This document shows positions 23,317-30,559 of a stretch of 64,000 nucleotides of DNA, piece after piece; within the stretch, counting starts at the first letter, position 1, and each line of letters starts with the position of its first letter. The stretch is from contig NZ_FUKO01000019.1 of the NCBI RefSeq assembly GCF_900163815.1, positions 310,001 through 374,000 on the forward strand, given 5' to 3'. Position numbers and translations under genes: made by a program. Under the pieces are notes generated by a model. The model was not told the DNA's origin and searched no databases. It saw only the letters and a list, made by a program, of their open reading frames with translations. This DNA comes from Microbacterium esteraromaticum (GTDB taxonomy: Bacteria; Actinomycetota; Actinomycetes; Actinomycetales; Microbacteriaceae).

Positions 23317-24465
23317 ATGGATCTTCTCGTAGTCGGATCGGGTTTCTTCGGCCTCACCGTCGCTGAGCGTGCGGCAGCAGCCGGACGCAAGGTGATCGTC
23401 ATCGACCGTCGCCCGCACATCGGCGGCAACGCCTACAGCGAAGCGGAGCCTGAGACCGGGATCGAGGTGCACCGCTACGGTGCGCACCTGTTCCACACGT
23501 CCAACCCGACGGTGTGGGAGTACGTGAACCGCTTCACGACCTTCACTAGTTACGTGCACCGGGTCTACACGCACCACAAGGACGTCGTGTACCCGATGCC
23601 GGTGAACCTCGGCACGATCAACCAGTTCTTTCAGGCGGCCTACTCGCCGAGCGAGGCGCGCGCGCTCATCAAGGAGCAGGCGGGCGAGTTCGACGTGAAG
23701 ACCGCGCAGAACTTCGAGGAGAAGGGCATCGCCCTGGTGGGGCGCCCGCTGTTCGAGGCGTTCTTCCGCGACTACACGGCCAAGCAGTGGCAGACCGACC
23801 CGCACAAGCTCTCCGGCGATATCGTCAGCCGCCTTCCGGTGCGCTACACATACGACAACCGGTACTTCAACGACACGTGGGAGGGTCTGCCGACCGAGGG
23901 CTACACGGCATGGCTGGAGCGGATGGCCGATCACCCGAACATCGATGTGAAGCTCGGCGTCGACTACTTCGACGAGTCGCAGCCGCTCAACAGGCGGGCC
24001 ACCGTCGGACAGCTTCCGATCGTCTACACCGGTCCCGTCGACCGCTACTTCGACTATGCAGAGGGCGCACTCAGTTGGCGCACCCTCGACTTCGAGCAGG
24101 AGGTGCTGAATACCAGCGACTTCCAGGGCACCAGCGTCATGAACTACCCCGATCTGGACGCGCCTTTCACCCGCATCCACGAGTTCAAGCACTTCCATCC
24201 CGAACGCAAGGAGATCTTCGCTCAGGATAAGACCGTCATCATGCGGGAATTCTCGCGCTTCGCGAACCGAGACGACGAACCCTACTACCCGGTGAACACC
24301 TCGGCCGACCGCGACGGTCTGCTGGCCTACCGCGAGCTCGCCAAGGGCGAGCAGGACGTGCACTTCGGTGGGCGCTTGGGCACTTACCAGTACCTCGACA
24401 TGCACATGGCCATCGGCTCCGCGCTGTCGATGTGGCGCAACGACCTCGCCGTCCAAGACGACTGA
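23317..24465 (+). CDS. glf: UDP-galactopyranose mutase
   Basis: A 382-residue FAD enzyme, close to the usual length. The dinucleotide fold [16 protein letters not shown] opens the protein, followed by [14 protein letters not shown] and [22 protein letters not shown]. The substrate and flavin-contact segments TAKQWQTDP and [17 protein letters not shown] are intact. It converts UDP-Galp to UDP-Galf, the donor for galactofuranan. The second ABC exporter follows 7 bases after its stop, and GlfT-like transferases lie just beyond. The whole module therefore makes and exports a galactofuranose polymer or Galf-containing glycan. Confidence 0.95.
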
Positions 24466-24472
24466 CGCACGG

Positions 24473-25291
24473 ATGAGCAGGTCTTCAGTCGGAGCCCCTG
24501 GCACGCCACAGCGCTACGCACATTCCTTATGGCTGCTCTCGGCCCGCGATCTGAAGGTGCGCTACTCCACGAGCGTGCTCGGCTACTTGTGGTCGGTGCT
24601 CGACCCACTCGTGATGAGTGCGATTTACTGGTTCGTCTTCACCCGTGTGTTTCAACGCGATGTCGGCGAGGACCCATACATCATCTTTCTGATCAGCGGC
24701 CTGCTGCCATGGGTGTGGTTCAACTCCTGCGTTTCCGACTTCACGAAAGCCTTCAAACGTGACTCCAGACTGGTCCGCTCCACCGCGATTCCGCGGTCCA
24801 TCTGGGTAACTCGCATTGTGCTGAGCAAAGGGATTGAGTTCCTGTTCTCGCTGCCGGTGCTCGCCATATTCGTCATCATCAACATGTTGGTCGAGACGGA
24901 TACTGCCCAGCACGCGCACATCGGGTGGGGAATTCTTTGGTTGCCGGTGGCAGTTGTGCTGCAGACGATTCTGCTGGTCGGCCTGGGGCTGCTCGTCGCT
25001 CCGCTGTGCGCACTGTACGCCGACCTCGAGCGCACCACGGGACTCATCCTGCGTGCGCTGTTCTACGCCACGCCGATCATCTACAACGTCTCGAATCTGC
25101 CCGGCGTGTTCGAGACGCTCGGCGCCTTCAACCCGCTTGCGGGAATCTTCACCCTGTACCGGATGGCGTTCTTTCCCGACCAGTGGCACGCCTTGACGGT
25201 CGTCATCAGCGTTGTCATGAGCCTGCTTATTCTGGGGTTGGGAGCTTGGGTCTTCCGGAAGCTCGAACGTCCTGTCCTTAAGGAGCTGTGA
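24473..25291 (+). CDS. ABC-2 exporter permease, second exporter (galactan type)
   Basis: A 272-residue membrane protein with six hydrophobic segments and the ABC-2 N-terminal signature SARDLKVRYSTSVLGYLWSVLDPLVMSAIYWFVF. This is the permease half of a Wzm-type exporter. The ATG at 24473 lies 7 bases after the glf stop, so the gene is cotranscribed with glf. The order glf, permease, ATPase, with GlfT-like enzymes nearby, recalls the mycobacterial galactan export region (Rv3781-Rv3783). Compared with the permease at 5770 it is clearly a separate member of the family and not a recent duplicate. Confidence 0.88.
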   Translation: MSRSSVGAPGTPQRYAHSLWLLSARDLKVRYSTSVLGYLWSVLDPLVMSAIYWFVFTRVFQRDVGEDPYIIFLISGLLPWVWFNSCVSDFTKAFKRDSRLVRSTAIPRSIWVTRIVLSKGIEFLFSLPVLAIFVIINMLVETDTAQHAHIGWGILWLPVAVVLQTILLVGLGLLVAPLCALYADLERTTGLILRALFYATPIIYNVSNLPGVFETLGAFNPLAGIFTLYRMAFFPDQWHALTVVISVVMSLLILGLGAWVFRKLERPVLKEL

Positions 25292-26025
25292 TGTCGGCTG
25301 CCATCGAGGTGAACGGACTAGGGGTGCACTTCCGCCGCAATCGGCGTGGACGCCGAAGCTTCAAGGATCTGTTCGCCGGGGCATCCCGACGGTCGCGTCC
25401 GGAGGAGTTCTGGATCCTGAGGAACGTGAGTTTCTCGGTGCAGCCTGGAGAGTCAATTGGCGTCGTCGGACGGAACGGTCAGGGAAAGTCGACGCTGCTC
25501 CGGCTGGTCGCAGGAGTTCTGCTCGCCGACGAGGGCGATGTCGAGGTGCACGGAGGGGTGGCGCCGCTCATCGAGCTGACCGGCGGCTTCGTCGGTGACC
25601 TCACTGTGCGCGAGAACGTTAAGATGACCGCCGGTCTGCACGGGATGTCCCGGGCCGAGGTTGCCAGACGCTACGACGACATCATCGCCTTCGCCGAACT
25701 CGCCGGGTTCGAGGACACGCCCTACAAACACCTCTCCAACGGCATGAAAGTACGGCTAGCGTTCTCGGTCGTGTCGCAGCTCGACGAGCCCATCCTGCTC
25801 GTCGACGAGGTGCTTGCCGTCGGCGACAAGGCCTTCCGCGAGAAGTGCTATAAGCGAATCGACGAGCTGCTCGCCGAGGGGCGCACTCTGTTCTTCGTCA
25901 GCCACAACGAGCGCGACTTGCGTCGATTCTGTACTCGTGGCCTCTATCTCGACAGAGGTTCCCTCGTGCTCGATGCGAGCATCACGGAAGTTCTCGATCG
26001 TTACAACACCGACTACAACAGCTAG
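25291..26025 (+). CDS. ABC exporter ATP-binding protein, second exporter
   Basis: A 244-residue ATPase. Walker A is GRNGQGKST (60-68), the signature reads LSNGM (148-152), and Walker B is EPILLVDE (166-173) with a following GDK. It too lacks a C-terminal carbohydrate-binding domain. It begins within the permease stop (TGATG), with AAGGAG 6 bases upstream. RfbE/Wzt-type ATPases of galactan exporters are of this short form. In-operon pairing with glf makes lipid-linked galactan the best guess for the cargo. Confidence 0.9.
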   Translation: MSAAIEVNGLGVHFRRNRRGRRSFKDLFAGASRRSRPEEFWILRNVSFSVQPGESIGVVGRNGQGKSTLLRLVAGVLLADEGDVEVHGGVAPLIELTGGFVGDLTVRENVKMTAGLHGMSRAEVARRYDDIIAFAELAGFEDTPYKHLSNGMKVRLAFSVVSQLDEPILLVDEVLAVGDKAFREKCYKRIDELLAEGRTLFFVSHNERDLRRFCTRGLYLDRGSLVLDASITEVLDRYNTDYNS

Positions 26026-26027
26026 GT

Positions 26028-29466: not shown

Positions 29467-29474
29467 GAGGTGAC

Positions 29475-29480
29475 AGCATA
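29475..29480 (-). promoter_or_regulatory. -10 box upstream of the glfT2-like gene, next to GTCACnnnGTGAC
   Basis: On the minus strand TATGCT ends 8 bases before the GTG at 29466. The start codon also sits in the perfect inverted repeat GTCAC-gag-GTGAC (29462-29474). That could be an operator or chance. Confidence 0.4.
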
Positions 29481-29554
29481 CCGGTGACTACCTTGGGAAC
29501 GTCGCAAAGCGAGTGCGTGGTGCCGCATATCCGTTTGCAGGGTCGGGCGTGAGC

Positions 29555-30559
29555 ATGGGACGGATGAAGGTAATGATCACCGGCGGCGCCCGCTATATCG
29601 GATCCACTGTGGCGAGCGCGTGCCTCGACGCCGGGATTCGGGTGGTCGTCCTCGATGATTTATCCACGGGACGAGCAGAGTTCGGTGCCGAGCGCAATCT
29701 GTATCGAGGCGATATTGCCGATGCAACACTCCTGGAGCGCATCGTCAAGGAGCATCCTGATATCAATCTGGTGATTCACTGCGCTGCACGAATTGTCGTT
29801 CCTGATTCCGTGGCTGAGCCACTCGACTACTACGACGTCAACGTCGGACGCACACTGACGATGGTTCGCCTACTCGCCGCTCTCGGAGTCTCTCGAGTGC
29901 TGTTCAGTTCGTCAGCGGCCATTTATAGCGGGGATTCGGGGGGAGGCGTCGACGAGGACGCAGAGATCGCCCCCGGCAGCCCCTACGCGAGCACCAAATG
30001 GATGGTCGAGCAGATCCTGCGGGATTCGGCGCAAGCAGGTAAAATTCGTGCCGTCGCGTTGCGCTACTTCAACCCGATCGGTGCGGACCCGCGGTTGCGC
30101 ACGGGGTTGCAGAGCCTGGCGCCGTCGCATGCTCTCGGGAAGATCATGACGGCCCGAGCCACCGCCACACCATTCACACTCACAGGGACCGATTGGAACA
30201 CTCGCGACGGATCAGGTCTGCGGGACTATATCCATGTATGGGATTTAGCGCGCGCACACGTCGCGGCCGTGCAGCGTTTTGATGGGATTGTGAATGCTGA
30301 TGACCCTTATTCGGCGATGAATATCGGGACTGGCCACGGTGTCACTGTGCGTGAACTCGTATCAGCGTTCGAGGCGGTGACCGGCGAGCCGCTCGAGGTC
30401 ATTGAAAGTGGTCGCCGCCCAGGCGACCAGGCGGGAGCTTTTGCGCTCGTAGGTCGTGCCGAAGCCGGACTCGGCTGGAAGGCAGACCGCTCGGTGGAGG
30501 ACGGCGTGCGTGACGCACTTGCGTGGGCCGAGAAACTGAAAACGCTGAACCGATCCTGA
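29555..30559 (+). CDS. galE: UDP-glucose 4-epimerase, with an Arg in the glycine-rich NAD loop
   Basis: A 334-residue extended SDR enzyme. Family features: DDLSTGRAEF after the second strand, IHCAARIVVPDSVAEPLDYYDVN, LFSSSAAIY (Ser119/Ser120) and SPYASTKWMVEQ (Tyr144, Lys148), with the C-terminal RRPGD segment. The NAD motif reads TGGARYIG: Arg13 stands where GxxGxxG requires the second glycine (codon cgc instead of ggc). GalE would supply UDP-Galp to Glf in the galactofuranan module. Codon use is less GC-rich than in its neighbours. Start at 29555 or 29564; a GTG at 29549 is also possible. It ends 1 base from the convergent O-antigen polymerase gene. Confidence 0.85.
   Translation: MGRMKVMITGGARYIGSTVASACLDAGIRVVVLDDLSTGRAEFGAERNLYRGDIADATLLERIVKEHPDINLVIHCAARIVVPDSVAEPLDYYDVNVGRTLTMVRLLAALGVSRVLFSSSAAIYSGDSGGGVDEDAEIAPGSPYASTKWMVEQILRDSAQAGKIRAVALRYFNPIGADPRLRTGLQSLAPSHALGKIMTARATATPFTLTGTDWNTRDGSGLRDYIHVWDLARAHVAAVQRFDGIVNADDPYSAMNIGTGHGVTVRELVSAFEAVTGEPLEVIESGRRPGDQAGAFALVGRAEAGLGWKADRSVEDGVRDALAWAEKLKTLNRS

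Follow-up and report, generated by a model that had tools for sequence, protein, structure and literature searches.

A probable galactofuranose locus

The window analysed here is a 64,000-nucleotide stretch of the Microbacterium esteraromaticum genome (assembly GCF_900163815.1, contig NZ_FUKO01000019.1, positions 310,001 to 374,000 of the forward strand), and its positions 23,317 to 30,559 hold a gene set for galactofuranose (Galf) in which a GlfT2, a galactofuranan polymerase by prediction, stands next to a GlfT1-like glycosyltransferase. This GlfT2 is probably an accessory polymerase that lengthens the primer supplied by the GlfT1-like enzyme, which would give a cell-wall galactofuranan without arabinan. 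The genes that the first-pass annotation had listed here are all present, and Pfam and NCBIfam confirm the mutase, the permease and ATPase of an ATP-binding cassette (ABC) exporter, a family 2 glycosyltransferase (GT2), GlfT2 and GalE:

23317..24465, + strand: glf, uridine diphosphate (UDP)-galactopyranose mutase (TIGR00031 and PF03275 above cut-off)
24461..25291, + strand: wzm, ABC-2 permease, short-form polysaccharide exporter (PF01061)
25288..26025, + strand: wzt, exporter ATPase; at 245 aa it leaves no room for a C-terminal carbohydrate-binding domain (PF00005)
26600..27559, − strand: GlfT1-like GT2, 319 aa, putative adder of the first Galf residue(s) (PF00535)
27556..29466, − strand: GlfT2, predicted galactofuranan polymerase, 636 aa (PF19320/PF17994, match to 4fix, structure model, residues)
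29513..30559, start probably 29558, + strand: galE, UDP-glucose 4-epimerase, accessory (TIGR01179)

Glf scores 331.4 bits against the TIGR00031 equivalog model (cut-off 303.75), and GalE scores 288 bits against TIGR01179 (cut-off 262.3). Among the matches listed, galE sits between glfT2 and wzyA, a flanking gene introduced below, in 7 of 25 named Microbacterium-group loci.

Identity of GlfT2

The 636-aa protein is, as judged from its sequence and its predicted structure, securely a genuine GlfT2. The N-terminal domain PF17994 scores 110.4 bits (cut-off 26.1) and the C-terminal domain PF19320 scores 145.4 bits (cut-off 27), and the two flank a GT-A core, which is the layout that the family requires. 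With phmmer, residues 39–630 align with the solved mycobacterial structure 4fix at an E-value of 3.6e-132. An AlphaFold2 (AF2) model built from 26 sequences reached a mean predicted local distance difference test (pLDDT) of 90.1; when it was compared with the PDB, ranks 1 to 7 were all GlfT2 (E ≤ 3.4e-68, TMq 0.88–0.90), and rank 8 followed at only E 6.6e-10 and TMq 0.28. Superposition on 4fix gave template modelling (TM) scores of 0.89/0.90 over 644 columns, that is to say, the fold is shared over the full length.

The residues D260-D261-D262, D371-D372 (within the WDDA motif W370-D371-D372-A373) and H396, the last of which we take to be a metal ligand, lie exactly where the first-pass annotation had placed them, and they are the same in 8/8 aligned rows of the mycolate family. 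This family (f10) was taken as the mycolate family because all three of its genomes that were tested carry GlfT1 above the curated cut-off. DDD is the metal motif and WDDA the catalytic motif of GlfT2 (PMC7168186). At 24 of 24 positions of the active-site region the window protein is identical to 8/8 aligned f10 rows, and in nine other non-mycolate rows three of these positions vary, each in one row; the overall identity to GlfT2 of the mycolate family is 35.6–38.8%. The earlier assignment to the GlfT2 family is thus borne out by domains above cut-off, by the fold and by the 24 positions. Both the family scores and conservation rule out chance: 270 of the 295 Microbacterium genomes have retained the GlfT1-like gene. 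By analogy with GlfT2, a processive, bifunctional enzyme that forms a tetramer, the window protein would polymerise Galf through alternating β-(1→5) and β-(1→6) linkages.

The GlfT1-like glycosyltransferase

The 319-aa protein carries DDD and WDD motifs, and its AF2 model (19 sequences) is of moderate confidence with a pLDDT of 72.5. The best PDB match of this model is GlfT2 of Nocardia brasiliensis (TMq 0.69–0.71, E 2e-11 to 8e-11). From its sequence and model it is plausible, at most, that the protein is a galactofuranosyltransferase. It had been likened to mycobacterial GlfT1, and this likeness did not survive: the NCBIfam GlfT1 model (NF050113) gives 69.2 bits for the protein and 56.5 bits in the genome scan, against a cut-off of 330 and 513–537 bits in three f10 control genomes, so that orthology with GlfT1 is ruled out.

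At a score of at least 150 bits, none of the 55 listed named loci from outside the Microbacterium group has a GlfT1-like gene, and L051 with its duplicate L164 is the sole case among further loci of other genera. Since the GlfT1-like protein is nearly never met in non-Microbacterium loci, its pairing with glfT2 is a Microbacterium feature. In another family (f33, presumably Nocardioidaceae), many loci carry a pair of weaker GT2 relatives, which lie upstream of glf.

A nested pattern within Microbacterium

In the 295 Microbacterium genomes, with incomplete genomes kept in and thresholds of E 1e-3 for PF17994, 1e-40 for wzm and 1e-60 for the GlfT1-like protein, the GlfT1-like gene was found in 270, wzm in 232 and GlfT2 in 203. 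All 203 GlfT2-positive genomes have the GlfT1-like gene, which is also present in 67 of the 92 GlfT2-negative ones, and 25 have neither (Fisher p 1.7e-14, uncorrected for relatedness). At the level of loci, the GlfT1-like gene is present in 25/25 named GlfT2-positive Microbacterium-group loci among the matches listed; wzm co-occurs with it in 231 of 232 genomes. The dependence is therefore one-way, that is, in this genus GlfT2 never occurs without the GlfT1-like protein and the reverse is seen. This is what is expected if the GlfT1-like protein and Glf make a lipid primer with Galf on it, ready for GlfT2 to lengthen; in mycobacteria, GlfT1 primes for GlfT2 (PMC7168186; PMC10951656).

The place of glfT2 in the locus is bordered on one side by the following genes:

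30561..31868, − strand: wzyA, Wzy_C / O-antigen-ligase-like membrane protein A, bordering the slot of GlfT2 (PF04932)
31865..33331, − strand: Wzy_C / O-antigen-ligase-like membrane protein B (PF04932)
33303..34466, + strand: manA, type I phosphomannose isomerase, conserved border of the locus (PF20511)

One or both of the Wzy_C-like proteins (30561–33331) recur at this border in most Microbacterium loci inspected. Ten loci were taken from the 59 that are wzm-positive and GlfT2-negative, and glf, wzm, wzt and the GlfT1-like gene were found in 10/10; in L203, L208 and L210 the GlfT1-like gene runs off the end of the locus. The GlfT2 query reaches at most 43.9 bits in these ten loci, where it falls on the GlfT1-like gene in nine and matches nothing in L208. 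In such GlfT2-free loci wzyA adjoins the GlfT1-like gene: the aligned ends are 68–115 bp apart in six of the seven readable loci (L204, L205, L206, L207, L209 and L211), and the exception is L202, where about 1.1 kb lies between them and holds one open reading frame (ORF) without an assigned kind. The corresponding stretch of the window measures 3.0 kb and contains glfT2 and galE.

The locus is not a fixed five-gene galactan module, because many congeners that lack GlfT2 still have the GlfT1-like gene and the exporter. Glf, the GlfT1-like protein and the exporter are best read as the commoner core in Microbacterium, and GlfT2 as an optional polymerase; this suggests that Galf is used for another product in the GlfT2-free species.

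Two further observations concern the arrangement. In some species that have GlfT2 and lack the exporter (L212, L213, L214 and L220), sequence reading places an acyltransferase-like ORF or a GT2 between the GlfT1-like gene and its neighbour. Divergent GlfT2 proteins (41–50%) of some Microbacterium species lie elsewhere, beside or near glf, in L034 (genome G148, 8408–10252), L214, L218, L220 and L221, and the usual GlfT1-like gene is retained in the same locus in L034, L214, L220 and L221.

Distribution and phylogeny of GlfT2

A scan of 296 genomes of the class, from 114 genera, gave PF17994 in 63 genomes and 19 genera. Of the positive genomes, 24, from 4 genera, belong to the mycolate family and 39 lie outside it; GlfT2 outside mycolates is common. 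When GTDB species genomes were scanned with a GlfT2 alignment, the closest relative among the best 80 of 567, a list rich in Arthrobacter, was GlfT2 of Microbacterium arabinogalactanolyticum with 87% identity. By hand count, 38 of the 55 listed named loci from outside the Microbacterium group have glf and glfT2 followed by an exporter of the wzm2/wzt2 type (the second exporter of the window, described below); the ATPase of L121 matches wzt better than wzt2.

Quick trees with SH-aLRT values as the only support were calculated. The tree of 95 GlfT2-related rows was rooted on five f10 paralogue rows; its root rests on long branches and carries little weight. The tree holds 8 of the 24 f10 first-copy rows and omits 35 near-duplicate loci, mostly of Arthrobacter and relatives, Microbacterium and Leucobacter. 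The eight f10 GlfT2 proteins form one clade (SH-aLRT 100) and 81 others a second one (97), with the long row L064 (f33) outside both. Within the 81, 37 rows, most of them from Microbacteriaceae, form a set (100) that contains the 21 Microbacterium-group rows (99). The exceptions among the 37 are L051 (f33) and L043 (f8, long branch), and because these two fall within a mostly Microbacteriaceae set, some transfer of GlfT2 has occurred. In a second tree of 76 rows, from which six long rows (L034, L041, L042, L043, L049 and L064) and 13 near-duplicates were omitted, the 16 Microbacterium rows form one group (100). The approximately unbiased (AU) test on this tree rejected a single clade of Microbacterium and f10 with p-AU 0.00022; the groups were picked after the first tree, and the question of a mycolate origin had been posed beforehand.

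Because f10 forms a separate clade and the AU test rejects the joint one, GlfT2 was not recently taken from mycolates, and its acquisition from them is ruled out. The phylogenetic check proposed in the first-pass annotation has thereby been run, and it groups the protein with Microbacteriaceae. Some f10 genomes (L068, L069, L070 and L071) have extra GlfT2 paralogues with 31–34% identity to the window protein, two of them in tandem in L069. The paralogue of L070 lies about 1–2 kb from a GlfT1 above cut-off, with Wzt beyond it, and weak tblastn matches give a similar picture for L068 and L071.

The two ABC exporters

Wzm scores 61.7 bits against the galactan Wzm model (NF050109, cut-off 380), and Wzt 153.1 bits against the galactan Wzt model (NF050108, cut-off 400); for Wzt, the TagH and galactan-Wzt models both match below cut-off. 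The window holds a second exporter:

5749..6654, + strand: wzm2, permease of the second ABC exporter (sequence reading; relatives found by tblastn next to glfT2 in other genera)
6654..7403, + strand: wzt2, ATPase of the second exporter (PF00005; tree)

A tree of 60 Wzt rows, midpoint-rooted and with very long branches, of which only the separation of groups was used, places f10 (6 rows), the Microbacterium exporter (16 rows, in that group only) and the exporters beside glfT2 elsewhere in separate groups. The curated cut-offs and this tree together rule out wzm and wzt as orthologues of the galactan Wzm and Wzt. The idea that wzm is a strict partner of GlfT2 was likewise rejected, since 173 Microbacterium genomes have both, 30 have GlfT2 only, 59 have wzm only and 33 have neither.

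Arabinogalactan genes and wall chemistry

The genome (3.37 Mb in 50 contigs) was scanned for genes of the arabinogalactan pathway. The first-pass annotation had seen no Emb or Aft genes in the window, and this stands for the whole genome as regards Emb (PF04602) and AftA (PF12249), which gave no match where the C. glutamicum control was positive; AftB, AftC, AftD, DprE1 and mycolate genes lay outside this search. An orthologue of WbbL was not found in the genome, the best match being fragmentary with 24.6 bits. The query was the gene after rmlD in the f10 genome G290, which we take to be WbbL from gene order, and not a gene picked by a family model; it recovers an 87% identical orthologue with 584 bits in another f10 genome, and gives 100 bits and 33% identity in the same-family genome G094. 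Because no WbbL orthologue was seen, the linker probably differs from the mycobacterial linker of N-acetylglucosamine and rhamnose (GlcNAc-Rha). There are two matches to PF00953, the WecA-type domain, which is not specific (12 of 14 control genomes match too), and one of these genes adjoins what is presumably the atp operon, presumably also the usual place of wecA. Three genes match PF03816, the LytR-CpsA-Psr (LCP) family.

As to the wall itself, a 2024 species description (PMC11319209) states that Microbacterium is without mycolic acids, in agreement with the earlier view of the host as a non-mycolate actinobacterium. The same description, citing Evtushenko and Takeuchi 2006, states that the walls of M. 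keratanolyticum and M. arabinogalactanolyticum have so far yielded no carbohydrate other than galactose, and reports that galactose predominates in the wall of the new species (PMC11319209). Wall galactose fits a galactan. In another study, glf of three Microbacterium strains is listed as a possible biofilm gene (PMC7642513). Among the matches listed in a search of open-access full-text literature, which leaves the chemistry in subscription journals outside its scope, there was no report on GlfT2 or galactan biosynthesis in Microbacterium. Galf polymers outside mycolates are already known, with examples in Bifidobacterium catenulatum and Arthrobacter (PMC7278926).

Neighbouring genes

The remaining features of the window are as follows:

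26028..26603, − strand: small protein of 191 aa, with what looks like a single membrane segment, and a stretch rich in proline and threonine (sequence reading)
14587..17869, − strand: rmlCD fusion, rmlB and rmlA, dTDP-rhamnose supply (PF00908 and PF04321 in one ORF, PF16363, PF00483)
147..1598, + strand: LCP ligase, candidate for attachment to peptidoglycan (PF03816; one of three in the genome)

The small protein, which gave no match in the Pfam search, adjoins the GlfT1-like gene in a number of congeners. Positions 147–19183 hold a second gene set for a wall polymer, which comprises the LCP ligase, wzm2/wzt2, an ORF with LicD and methyltransferase domains, a GT2 of the TarS-linker kind, an IspD/TarI-like cytidylyltransferase, a DUF7657 membrane protein, the fused RmlC-RmlD, RmlB and RmlA; its content suggests a phosphodiester-containing (teichoic-acid-like) polymer. 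A 973-aa protein (2749–5670) has no Pfam match; several genera have relatives of it in the vicinity of glf/glfT2 or of rml genes. At 19279–22362 there are a DUF6541 protein, a PpgS-like polyprenyl-phosphate glycosyltransferase and a DUF2304 protein, and members of this trio recur near such loci in several genera.

Proposed pathway and its alternatives

In the pathway that we consider probable, GalE and Glf would supply UDP-Galf, and WecA with a further transferase would make a lipid-linked primer, which as far as tested is not the GlcNAc-Rha made by WbbL. The GlfT1-like enzyme would place the first Galf on this primer, and GlfT2 would extend it into an alternating β-(1→5)/(1→6) Galf chain. A short-form ABC exporter, which may be either of the two, would translocate the chain, and an LCP ligase would attach it to peptidoglycan. 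The substrates, linkages, order of steps, choice of exporter and attachment are here what we infer.

Several observations weigh against this pathway. The identity of the GlfT1-like protein to three GlfT1 proteins of the mycolate family is only about 27% over 199–281 aa (E 5e-8 to 1e-10; 26.6% over 199 aa with that of L155), and in the structure comparison RmlT, WrtF and TarS come close behind GlfT2 with E-values of 1e-10 to 4e-10; because of this distant identity and of other GT2 enzymes at similar E-values, the role in adding the first Galf is assigned from context. The adjacent exporter is not galactan-specific, since wzm is common without GlfT2 (59/92 GlfT2-negative Microbacterium genomes) and sometimes missing with it (30/203 GlfT2-positive), and it is wzt2 that groups with the exporters beside glfT2 elsewhere, within a 7-row Microbacteriaceae set (98). 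No clear replacement polymerase was seen by Pfam among ten hand-picked ORFs from five GlfT2-free loci, which were four acyltransferases (two with an SGNH domain), two GT2, two DUF2142 proteins, one aminotransferase and one oxidoreductase. The wall sugars of the genus vary and include glucose, rhamnose, fucose, 6-deoxytalose and xylose (PMC11319209), and the ring form of the wall galactose could be pyranose.

Part of this evidence would also suit a different product, in which GlfT2 polymerises Galf as a branch or extension on a rhamnose- or mannose-containing heteropolymer that is served by Glf, the GlfT1-like protein and the exporter in all congeners having them. The persistence of these three without GlfT2, the nearby rmlABCD, manA and two Wzy_C-like proteins, and the other sugars in walls of other Microbacterium species (PMC11319209) agree with it. 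Against it, galactose is the only wall sugar reported for the nearest named relative (PMC11319209), and mycobacterial GlfT2 extends a lipid-linked primer (PMC7168186); we regard such a heteropolymer as unlikely. It is a good deal more doubtful that the fold and residues of GlfT2 were conserved while donor or linkage changed, for example to β-1,6 only or to another furanose: an identity of just 35.6–38.8% to GlfT2 of the mycolate family leaves room for this, but the 24/24 positions shared with 8/8 mycolate-family rows and the glf in the same locus speak for an unchanged specificity. The original reading of the locus was a mycobacterial-type galactan module, and of this the real GlfT2 and the real glf remain; GlfT2 is no mycobacterial hallmark, given its 19 of 114 genera, the GlfT1, Wzm and Wzt models stay below cut-off and WbbL was not found. 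The strict form, with the same linker and steps acquired horizontally from mycolates, draws on the glf and GlfT2 matches and on a gene list resembling the mycobacterial one. It is the least probable of all and is largely refuted by the rejection of a joint Microbacterium/mycolate-family clade and by the same missing matches.

The galactofuranan pathway extended by an accessory GlfT2 is therefore the reading we retain. The polymerase in the window is of a kind spread widely among actinobacteria, and its setting here, with a candidate primer enzyme and an exporter of its own, is specific to the genus. A wider idea is possible but tentative: the GlfT2-type polymerase may be ancient among the wall enzymes of actinobacteria, with the mycobacterial galactan as one specialised offshoot, and in Microbacterium it may be exchangeable on a core of Galf primer and export, in which case species would change from one type of wall polymer to another by gaining or losing the single gene glfT2. 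GlfT2 appears in the literature found as a mycolate wall component and drug target. Should closely related polymerases prove to build galactans without arabinan across the non-mycolate actinobacteria, it would become testable how the core of the mycobacterial wall arose; Microbacterium, with natural pairs that have or lack GlfT2, would offer a simple system for the priming, length and export of galactan; and GlfT2 inhibitors should be checked on common non-mycolate actinobacteria.

Comparison with known systems

The galactan pathway of mycobacteria and corynebacteria consists of WecA, WbbL, Glf, GlfT1, GlfT2 and Wzm-Wzt. The Microbacterium locus and genome are like it in having Glf, a genuine GlfT2, a further GT2 similar to galactofuranosyltransferases, a short ABC exporter and genes of the WecA type and of LCP. 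They are unlike it in that WbbL, Emb and AftA were not found here, that the GlfT1 and Wzm/Wzt models are not reached, and that GlfT2 lies outside the mycolate clade and is optional in Microbacterium.

The Galf-rich surface polymers that are also known include the wall galactan of Bifidobacterium catenulatum, an Arthrobacter polysaccharide, galactan I of Klebsiella (PMC7278926) and a Kingella galactan; in the literature found, no GlfT2-type polymerase is tied to them, and those of Klebsiella and Kingella are linked to lipopolysaccharide. The glf-glfT2-exporter clusters of Arthrobacter, Sinomonas, Rothia, Actinomadura, Kineococcus and others share with the present locus Glf, a GlfT2 of 43–48% identity and a short-form exporter. 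Compared with these non-mycolate clusters, Microbacterium has a different exporter beside glf, a GlfT1-like gene adjoining glfT2, and genes placed on two strands.

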